Positions 47,231 through 49,294 of a stretch of 63,799 nt of DNA are shown one piece after another (positions within the stretch are counted from its first letter, which is position 1; each line of letters opens with the position of its first letter). The notes under the pieces are model-generated. The model ran no database searches, was not told the origin of the DNA, and saw nothing but the letters and a program-made list of their open reading frames with translations. Both the position numbers and the translations under genes were made by a program. This DNA is from Candidatus Contendibacter sp. Lineage in GTDB: Bacteria > Pseudomonadota > Gammaproteobacteria > Competibacterales > Competibacteraceae. The DNA lies in contig WBUJ01000004.1 in assembly GCA_008933795.1 (NCBI GenBank), forward strand, positions 1 to 63,799, given 5' to 3'.

Positions 47231-47488
47231 GTGCCCATAATAAGTAGATTTCTTGGAATCATCATTTCGATGTACTGGGACGATCATTTACCATCTCATT
47301 TTCACGCAAAATATGGAGAGTATGAAATTACGGTGAATATTGAAACGGGGGTAATTGAGGGAAGGTTTCCAAAGCGGGCTTTGAAGTTGGTATTGGAATG
47401 GTATGAAAGTCATAAAGATGAATTGATGGAAAATTGGGAATTGTGTCGAAACAAGGAAACGCCGAAGCAAATTAGCCCATTGGAGTAA
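47231..47488 (+). CDS. DUF4160 family protein
   Basis: Eighty-five residues starting at GTG, with GGAG 10-14 nt upstream. The DUF4160 core is clear: PIISRFLGIIISMYWDDHLPSHFHA followed by KYGEYEITVNI (quoted in parts). The HFH motif suggests metal or nucleic-acid contact, but no activity is established. The gene is AT-rich compared with the nuo operon 24 nt upstream and forms a pair with the DUF2442 gene 4 nt downstream. This pairing is common in bacteria and has been suggested to be toxin-antitoxin-like. It marks the left end of an accessory island. Confidence 0.85.
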   Translation: MPIISRFLGIIISMYWDDHLPSHFHAKYGEYEITVNIETGVIEGRFPKRALKLVLEWYESHKDELMENWELCRNKETPKQISPLE

Positions 47489-47492
47489 TATT

Positions 47493-47780
47493 ATGATTTT
47501 ACATGTTACCAAAGCAAAGTACTTGGAAGGTTATCGAGTTGAAGTTTCATTTAACGATGGAAAAACAGGAACAGTTGATTTGAGTCAATCATTGACAGGA
47601 ACAGTTTTTGGCCTTCTAAAAGATATAAAGGTATTTTCACAACTAAAAGTTGATAAAGAATTGGATACGATTGTTTGGCCTAATGGCGCAGATTTAGCGC
47701 CTGAATATTTATATTTTCAGGCATTTAAGGAAGTACCTGAACTGAAAAATAAATTTAGGGAATGGGGATATATTGCCTAA
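47493..47780 (+). CDS. DUF2442 family protein
   Basis: Ninety-five residues. DUF2442 features: VTKAKYLEGYRVEVSFNDGK at the N-terminus (given up to 20 residues) and IVWPNGADLAPEYLYFQA in the second half. It is AT-rich like its partner DUF4160 gene. Its TAA stop lies inside GCCTAAC, a sequence matching the left core (RYYYAAC) of an integron attC site, the usual position of a cassette gene stop. It is probably the antitoxin-like member of the pair, by analogy only. Confidence 0.82.
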   Translation: MILHVTKAKYLEGYRVEVSFNDGKTGTVDLSQSLTGTVFGLLKDIKVFSQLKVDKELDTIVWPNGADLAPEYLYFQAFKEVPELKNKFREWGYIA

Positions 47781-47858
47781 CAAGGCATTCCCTGTTGATA
47801 GTCCTGATGAGTTCTCCACAAACTACTTGTGTTGTATTGGATTGGATGCCTTGCGCCC
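47775..47858 (+). other. Left attC-like core and partial hairpin
   Basis: GCCTAAC (47775-47781) fits RYYYAAC and is the exact reverse complement of GTTAGGC at 47989. It is followed by AAGGCAT and, 60 nt on, ATGCCTT, an inverted pair as expected of L boxes. No right core is present before the next site, so this looks like a truncated or fused attC. Confidence 0.4.
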
Positions 47859-47995
47859 GCGACAACGGGGTGGCGAATAGACATCCGCTGGTTGCTTGGC
47901 GCTTTGCGCCGCGCAACCAGCGGATGAAGCCGACTTCGGGCGGAAAAGCCTGTGGCTCTCCCGCCCTGTGCGGCTTATCCGCCGCCCCGTTAGGC
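47859..47995 (+). other. attC-like recombination site
   Basis: 137 nt with paired ends. The left part AACGGGGTGGCGAATA is nearly complementary to the right part TTATCCGCCGCCCCGTT, and the site ends in GTTAGGC, a perfect GTTRRRY core (47989-47995). Two hairpins lie between: a perfect 14-bp stem (47882-47895 with 47913-47926) with an inner GGCGC/GCGCC stem, and a nested structure at 47927-47976. This is the organisation of an integron attC site. The next gene begins 22 nt after the core, as cassette genes do. No integrase is in the window. Confidence 0.6.
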
Positions 47996-48016
47996 TACAA
48001 AAAGTTGGGAACTCCT

Positions 48017-48715
48017 ATGAAAGAAGATTACATAGACAAAGACATTGGATGGAGAATTCAACTAAAACGAAAAAATGAAACTGTTGATTATGTGTATAAA
48101 AATCTTGTGACAAAAGAAAAAATAAAAGGGGGTGCTATGGAAGATGCTTTCAAATCACCTAGAGAAAGCATTGCACAATACCTAGATGAAAAAGAAAGAA
48201 CTAATACTTTAAGAAAAGCTGGTGTATTAGGGGAACAAATAGCTCGTAAGATAATAGAAATGATAGCATTGCTACATAACCGAGGTTATGAATCTCTATA
48301 TCTTGATTCTTGTATGGCACCTAGTGGAATGTACTGGCGCTACAAAATAGGTGCAATGGTGGAGAACCGTTGGCCAAACCCAGATTGTTATTTTGGCAAT
48401 GATACATCGTCATGCGTATCAGGTTCTATAGGTGGTGGATTTGAGCAAAAATTATCGTGGGCTAATATTACTGACACTATAGAAGTGATAGCAAATAAAT
48501 TTCAAGACACATACCCGATAATTCTTAATAATGCGCGTTGTTCAAATACGGAATATGTGAGTTGGTATAAAGAAATGCTAAAAAAAACAAGCCCGGAAGG
48601 TGTTTTGATTTTTAGCTGTGATTATGGTCCAGATTATGAGTATGCGTTTACATGGGGAGAACCAAAAAATTTTCAGATGCCTATGCCACCAGGGTTTAAG
48701 AAAAACGATTTTTAG
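48017..48715 (+). CDS. Orphan gene in a probable integron-type cassette
   Basis: 232 residues from the ATG at 48017; an open frame upstream to 47762 reads through the attC-like site and is not real coding. I do not recognise the family. The protein is soluble, lysine-rich in its first 70 residues (MKEDYIDKDIGWRIQLKRK). It has several Cys and aromatic residues (RGYESLYLDSCMAPSGMYWR near 95) and a Gly-rich SGSIGGGFEQ stretch. The end reads PEGVLIFSCDYGPDYEYAF and has no signal peptide or membrane helix. Composition is AT-rich, unlike the GC-rich chromosome. The gene starts 22 nt after an attC right core and ends just before another attC-like site, which is the layout of a mobile gene cassette. 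Confidence 0.7.
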   Translation: MKEDYIDKDIGWRIQLKRKNETVDYVYKNLVTKEKIKGGAMEDAFKSPRESIAQYLDEKERTNTLRKAGVLGEQIARKIIEMIALLHNRGYESLYLDSCMAPSGMYWRYKIGAMVENRWPNPDCYFGNDTSSCVSGSIGGGFEQKLSWANITDTIEVIANKFQDTYPIILNNARCSNTEYVSWYKEMLKKTSPEGVLIFSCDYGPDYEYAFTWGEPKNFQMPMPPGFKKNDF

Positions 48716-48721
48716 GAAAGT

Positions 48722-48855
48722 ATGTAACCAATGGTGCTAGTTTAATTCAGTAACTCTTTGATTTTGCTGGAGGCGCATCTTCTGGTACCAGCAACCGCAA
48801 AGCTGTAACCGCTTGATTTTGCTTGCCCGTAATGAACTAGCACCAATCGTTATGT
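48722..48855 (+). other. attC-like site downstream of the orphan gene
   Basis: The ends form an imperfect palindrome: AACcaatGGTGCTAGTT on the left and AACTAGCACCaatcGTT on the right, with 10 bp perfectly paired next to AAC and GTT cores. Inside, TTGCTGG (48764) pairs with CCAGCAA (48788), and the stretch TTGATTTTGCT occurs twice as a direct repeat. The right core is GTTATGT, which departs from strict GTTRRRY. Length 134 nt is normal for attC. Confidence 0.5.
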
Positions 48856-48971
48856 AGAGTGAAGCGAAACCGCCTAACTGGGCGTTGTACCTGACCGTGT
48901 TACGCACGGCAGGTGAACGAATGCTAGGGAACTAGGGACATTAGGGAACTAGGGACAGACCACGGTTTCCT
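48856..48971 (+). repeat. Decayed attC-like core and 16-bp tandem repeat
   Basis: GCCTAAC recurs at 48872, followed by a CCTG-CCGTG/CACGG-CAGG hairpin (about 48889-48913) but no right core. Then TAGGGAACTAGGGACA occurs twice (48925-48940 and 48942-48957), just beyond the stop of the transposase remnant on the other strand. Such GGGACA repeats are often found beside REP-associated transposases. Confidence 0.45.
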
Positions 48972-49195
48972 TTACATCTGAAACAGGTTCCCTGATTCCG
49001 ATTCCGATTCCGGTTCCAATTCCGGCGCTTTGCGAGGTCGCCCGAATTTTCCCGGCGTTGCCCGTCTTCCCAAGACCGATGACACTTGTGCAGCGAAGCG
49101 TTTATTGCCCAGCGTAAAATTGCCATTCGTGGCCCGCCGGATATCATCGACCAGTCTCGGCGCTAACTCGTAGTGAAAAAGTTCGAGTTTACAAG
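48972..49195 (-). pseudogene. C-terminal remnant of a REP-associated tyrosine transposase
   Basis: About 75 codons read LFHYELAPRLVDDIRRATNG, then FTLGNKRFAAQVSSVLGRR and GKFGRPRK. This is the characteristic C-terminal tail of RAYT (Y1/IS200-like, formerly DUF1568) transposases, ending in an acidic ELEPESESE repeat. The N-terminal catalytic domain with its HUH motif and tyrosine is missing, so the gene is dead. The remnant lies at the right border of the AT-rich island, with a repeat cluster just beyond its stop. Confidence 0.7.
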
Positions 49196-49294
49196 ACCAA
49201 AAACCGTGCTCTGCCCCCTTTTTTTCTGTTTGCTGCATTGCAATATAAAACCGTGTAGAGTAAGACCGCTTTTAGCTGAGTTTGTGGAGCGGTC
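49196..49294 (+). promoter_or_regulatory. Upstream region of prkB
   Basis: A T-run (49218-49226) followed by an AT-rich TATAAAA (49244-49250) sits about 45 nt before the prkB ATG, and could supply a -10 element. No confident -35 is seen. GGAG lies 8 nt before the start codon. Confidence 0.3.

Follow-up and report, generated by a model that had tools for sequence, protein, structure and literature searches.

The analysed window comprises 63,799 nt and corresponds to contig C158, one of the 334 contigs in the genome (G000) of a Competibacteraceae bacterium that shares its genus with a Candidatus Contendobacter. Between the nuo operon (nuoN) with the DUF2818 gene on one side and prkB on the other (gene names from reading the ORFs) there is a short integron cassette stretch consisting of a DhiT/DhiA-like toxin–antitoxin (TA) cassette, a probable hairpin cassette without a gene and the cassette of an orphan gene. 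An IS982-type MITE and a further small repeat have since damaged it (Table 1). In genomes G008, G017 and G018 prkB comes directly after DUF2818 with a short spacer between them, so about 2 kb are extra in the lineage of the window. The sequence next to the DUF2818 stop codon, where the entire insert begins, showed no clear G|TT, and entry at a genomic (attG-type) site is thus without support.

Table 1 Features of the cassette stretch (positions within the window)
Feature	Position	Strand	Basis
DUF4160 gene, DhiT-like toxin of the TA pair, cassette gene	47231..47488	+	PF13711
DUF2442 gene, DhiA-like antitoxin, stop codon within the attC core	47493..47780	+	PF10387
attC of the TA cassette, left part	47775..47853	+	14-bp perfect stem with TTAGGC 47990-47995, element left out
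ORF-less structured element, left-truncated, ends ...CCGCCGCCCCG	47854..47989	+	covariance model R1, 130 bits
TTAGGC, TTRRRY half-core opening the orphan cassette	47990..47995	+	sequence
Orphan gene, 232 aa, no detectable family	48017..48715	+	
MITE of an IS982-like insertion sequence	48721..48857	.	ends shared with IS
Remnant attC of the orphan cassette	48872..48928	+	sequence and fold
Separate small repeat	48925..49217	.	TAGGGAACTAGGGACA doublet and GGGACAGACCACGGTTT

The DUF4160 protein matches its Pfam family with 83 bits, above the cut-off, and the NCBIfam model DhiT with 79 bits, below the cut-off of 100 for that model; the DUF2442 protein also exceeds its Pfam cut-off (53 bits), with a DhiA score of 25 bits, far below the cut-off. 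The stop codon of the latter gene (TAA, 47778-47780) lies inside a GCCTAAC core (47775-47781), as had been noticed in the initial annotation. This core is the R'' box of an attC whose left part also holds the L'' box AAGGCAT, the L' box ATGCCTT and the last G of the G|TT cut point, and the TTAGGC half-core is complementary to the R'' box GCCTAAC of this upstream attC as well as to that of the downstream one. GCCTAACAAGGCAT (47775-47788) pairs without a mismatch with ATGCCTTG (47846-47853) plus the half-core. This 14-bp inverted repeat is perfect only once 47854-47989 is taken out, and the join then falls at G|TT. Integron recombination cuts the R' box as G|TTRRRY, so that adjacent cassettes each receive a part of it (PMC11014356). 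A perfect stem joined at this very point indicates an ordinary attC of about 85 nt, with R'' complementary to R' and L'' to L' around G|TT, that closes the DUF4160/DUF2442 cassette and is split by the structured element, so that the pair, earlier suggested as possibly mobile, is indeed a TA cassette.

The core heptamers were rejected as evidence on their own, since their counts are at chance level (about 3.9 expected per strand in 63.8 kb, two and three found). What stands above chance is the 14-bp inverted repeat, as well as the fact that the ~143-155 nt in between recur in this genome and in relatives. The GCCTAAC/GTTAGGC cores reported initially were confirmed in the sequence, GCCTAAC also being present at 48872-48878 and GTTAGGC at 47989-47995; the cores at 47775 and 47989 do not bound one attC, however, but are the halves of an attC split by the element. 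Taking 47775-47995 as one long attC was rejected because its 143-nt part repeats independently.

The ATG of the orphan ORF is located 22 nt past the right core, and the initial annotation was right about the cassette layout and about the orphan as a cassette gene. The orphan protein belongs to no Pfam family, and neither phages nor 368 other genomes from the class yielded a homologue; there is one weak plasmid match with 25% identity, and the single-sequence structure model is unusable (pLDDT 38). The gene indeed stops just before a palindrome (48725-48852), but the proposal that the latter is an attC was rejected, because its arms are IS terminal repeats and the same ends bound full IS copies. 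The palindrome is part of the MITE, which is 78% identical to a second copy (C46:17720-17851) located between unrelated genes, after a ParB-like gene (by reading), and whose terminal repeat TAACCATTGGTGCTAGTT also bounds insertion sequences of about 0.9 kb with a DDE transposase in G004 of the same genus (L050, L052). It resembles IS982-family MITEs in having IS982-like ends and a replaced interior, whereas the related transposase (L050, 261 aa) scores below the IS982 family cut-off (NF033520, 8.8e-17, 61 bits) and there is no clear target duplication. Caution is needed here, as IS-derived MITEs can look like attC sites by eye. The MITE came to lie between the orphan gene and the attC of its cassette; of this attC a remnant is left with the R'' box GCCTAAC, the hairpin CCTGaCCGTG/CACGGcAGG and a degraded R' box GCTAGGG instead of GTTAGGC. 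The arrangement initially proposed, one ordinary gene cassette between two attC sites (47775-47995 and the palindrome), accommodates the core heptamers and inverted arms and is nonetheless highly improbable, given that the palindrome is an IS-derived MITE and that the 221-nt first "attC" is made of an attC of ~85 nt and an inserted element of 136 nt. The small repeat was observed to be inserted between the decayed attC and the region upstream of prkB, with an imperfect inverted copy of GGGACAGACCACGGTTT at 49201-49217, about 250 nt away.

Intact copies of the structured element are about 155 nt long and contain a first hairpin, GTTGTCGCGGACGCTTCGCGCCCGCGACAAC, then GGGGCGGCGGAT ... ATCCGCCGCCCCG, which is a long stem carrying two inner hairpins. 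The 5' hairpin has about 14 bp and a top-strand loop which is usually TTC, and the long stem follows directly. The window copy (136 nt) has lost the left arm of the 5' hairpin, so that G47853 is directly followed by CGCCCGCGACAAC; the fold of 47772-47998 has a z-score of -8.4. There is no ORF of at least 70 aa in the element, ~155 nt being too short for one.

A BLAST search with the 143-nt segment yielded about 10 copies in the genome of the window and showed the segment in 22 of 59 related genomes as well; covariance model R1 detected the element in 23 of the 39 genomes of the family Competibacteraceae. Related records in which the element occurs are Competibacteraceae and include Candidatus Competibacter phosphatis SBR_G and Candidatus Contendobacter sp. 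SCELSE-2-Con. Beyond this family, in other families of the gammaproteobacteria, homologues are present in G095 and G231 (family f58: GATGCAGCAGGCGC... and ...ATCCGCAGAACCG|TT) and in G086 (f49). Weaker covariance matches with a similar layout come from G140 (f103), G179, G067/G212 and G217; such matches outside f1, f58 and f49 may represent convergent layouts. The copy in G011 has the same layout and a largely different sequence. No copies were found in PLSDB plasmids, nor was there any exact pattern match in viral contigs.

The stems and the junction sequence are conserved across families. Twenty-one copies from three families were aligned by sequence alone (A4); 96.2% of the cells were paired compared to 37-49% with the partners slid. 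This slide control preserves relatedness, though it is biased towards a structure taken from the alignment being tested, which is the case here. Both-sided changes were found in 113 cells versus 45 after shuffling, and the covariation was 0.317 versus 0.109 (0/500), a comparison that relatedness may inflate. Double changes affect 14 pairs. When RNA energies are used, all 10 copies compared have a more stable fold on the bottom strand than on the top one, in agreement with what is expected of attC; for the window copy, DNA energies do not distinguish the two strands. A known RNA family was rejected for the element, since nothing in Rfam reached the gathering score; the best weak match was sbcD (E 0.009, 23.6 bits against 40).

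Among 47 distinct copies, the left neighbour is G in 44 and the right neighbour is [GA]TT[AG] in 44. The unit thus starts after the G, and is followed by the TTRRRY, of attI or attC sites, and the hexamers to its right are typical cassette starts such as TTAGGC, TTGGGC, TTATGC and TTATGT. The left flank is attI-like in 17-18 copies (GGATTGTGGTAGATAGGCGGAAACTACATAATCACTTG and variants, a class recognised by sequence pattern). In the host genome (C314), G017 and G018, this attI is located just upstream of the divergent integrase gene, and on C308 of the host genome and in G036:C98 attI is joined straight to TTAGGY at the same G|TT with no element in between. In the remaining copies, attC was recognised by a simple stem rule, in which the sequence after YAAC is compared with the 22 nt that precede the junction. 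By this rule, 15 of 29 have a significant stem of the classic attC type versus 9 of 1160 control positions (p 1e-20), the left attC not being recognisable in 14 of the 29. Clear attC-flanked examples are the arrays in G034 and in G095/G231.

The element copies have a mean identity of 96% in G095, 100% in G140 and 97% in G034, and their 100-nt flanks are mostly at background level, which suggests a recent spread in these genomes. Five compared copies in the host genome average 82% identity, so that they are probably older.

The conservation of stems and junction sequence could also be explained if the element acted in cassette leaders as an RNA with a regulatory or stabilising role, retained because it helps the gene downstream to be expressed, with mobility being secondary. 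Many copies have an ORF start 7-120 nt downstream, the attI copies follow a promoter-like TTGTGG-17-CATAAT/TATAAT box ending about 5 nt before the element (by reading), and promoter activity has been reported for gene-less cassettes in Vibrio (PMC11014356). We regard such a leader function as quite unlikely, as conserved pairing is equally needed by a folded DNA site, the window copy has no 5' hairpin, and no promoter, terminator or riboswitch family was recognised within the element.

An intact integron integrase of 486 aa (TIGR02249, 377 bits with a cut-off of 265) is encoded on C314, where it adjoins attI and an element copy. The locus, initially described as being without an integrase, indeed has none on its contig, whereas the genome has this intact enzyme; the search for intI elsewhere in the genome, which had been proposed along with it, found this gene and a stop-containing one on C278. 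A CALIN is defined by at least two attC sites and no adjoining integrase; like one, the window has attC-bounded cassettes on a contig lacking intI, but there is just one split and one decayed attC. Integrases are also present in G140, G086 and G217, and none was found at E <= 1e-30 in G095 and G231, which have nine and four element copies, respectively. Within Competibacteraceae the element is commoner in genomes where an integrase was found (15/18 versus 10/21, p 0.04), a weak test given incomplete MAGs and related genomes, the whole sample being made up of draft genomes and MAGs.

Judging by its sequence and surroundings, the element is probably a gene-less integron cassette, presumably mobile, that amounts to little more than a folded recombination site. 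This reading is backed by the G|TT position, the near-identical copies with unrelated flanks, the covarying stems and the split attC, as well as by the presence of an intact integrase, attI and an element copy in one genome. In the circle that excision would produce, the two outer arms belonging to the 5' hairpin would serve as the R'/R'' boxes of a site resembling attC. The integron integrase would then cut the folded bottom strand at G and insert the unit at the G|TT of either attI or the attC of a different cassette, with no duplication left behind. The circle junction would read CCCCG|TTGTCGCG, and the circular single-stranded DNA of the element could fold into a nearly closed dumbbell.

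Against this stands the outer stem in Competibacteraceae and f58, which is fully paired and has neither the unpaired central spacer nor the extrahelical bases that orient attC recombination (PMC8946536), and the cores are GTTGTCG, GTAGTGC or GATGCAG, not GTTRRRY. A canonical attC of its own, with R boxes, unpaired central spacer and extrahelical bases, is thus lacking in the element, and both the pairing of the outer stem and the non-canonical cores seriously complicate an integrase mechanism. They fit with a non-autonomous mobile element of another kind, such as an IS110/IS1111-attC-like, an IS200/IS605-like or a group II intron derivative, which targets attI and attC, and so do the f58 genomes that carry copies and no detected integrase. 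Insertion sequences targeting attC are known. Group IIC introns are also known to do so (PMC7923331). We nevertheless consider this origin unlikely, since the target is not duplicated, the left flanks share G alone and the right ones keep TTR, the integrase consensus, attI and attC flanks differ save at G|TT, there is no match to group II introns in Rfam, and the ends were not seen on any longer element. A MITE of a DDE transposon was rejected for the hairpin element because there is no target duplication, and a Y1-type insertion because the left tetranucleotide is not conserved.

A broader form of the cassette reading, which we put forward tentatively, is that the elements may be minimal integron parasites crossing family borders, that is, gene-less "dumbbell" cassettes with non-canonical cores which spread via attI and attC in several gammaproteobacterial lineages and are kept by their structure; they would then be the integrons' own equivalent of MITEs. 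Gene-less cassettes are already known in Vibrio, where they have promoter activity (PMC11014356), and in oral metagenomes and Treponema (PMC6557892), and the units described here are similarly ORF-less and placed between gene cassettes. Unlike those, which were studied as promoter cassettes, the element is nearly all folded site, conserved in structure across families, present in many copies per genome and often first after attI. With the attC sites of sedentary chromosomal integrons it shares the location at G|TT, the hairpin form and the many near-identical copies per genome, and it differs from them in its outer stem and cores, as described above, and in the extra 5' hairpin. In the open-access literature searched, no description of the element or of integrons in Competibacter was found, nor was a cross-family, structure-conserved gene-less cassette with non-canonical cores.

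If the cassette reading is true, integron arrays host a family of self-spreading structured gene-less cassettes which repeatedly take the first position after attI. Such an element would test what the integrase needs in its substrate (spacer, extrahelical bases, GTTRRRY) and could account for part of the gene-less cassettes in environmental arrays. Cassette counts based on attC would be complicated too, as one element can split an attC and so hide it from search.

Further integron sequences were noticed, in part in the host genome, to which contigs C314, C278, C291, C308 and C185 belong. The first cassette genes after attI on C314 (L010, 9679-11222) code for a nuclease protein with weak resemblance to Mrr and for a protein with a PIN domain. 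The second integron integrase gene, on C278 (L009, 8700-9651), is interrupted by an in-frame TAA; part of a third such gene, with a TGA, is located on C291 (L011, 8783-8881). Attachment sequences resembling attI with a promoter-like box, several copies per genome, were seen at L041 (C308, 9511-9462), L108, L078, L104, L105, L109 and L058, mostly with no recognisable adjoining integrase in the stretches examined. On C308 (L041, 9470-7500) a cassette array with attI, an HNH-type nuclease-like gene (by reading) and a classic attC was observed, and no integrase was found beside it. Four element copies on the same strand are distributed over 8.6 kb of C185 (L033, 5300-13940), interspersed with genes including those for an AAA-ATPase (OLD/RecF-like) and a KatG-like protein (by reading).
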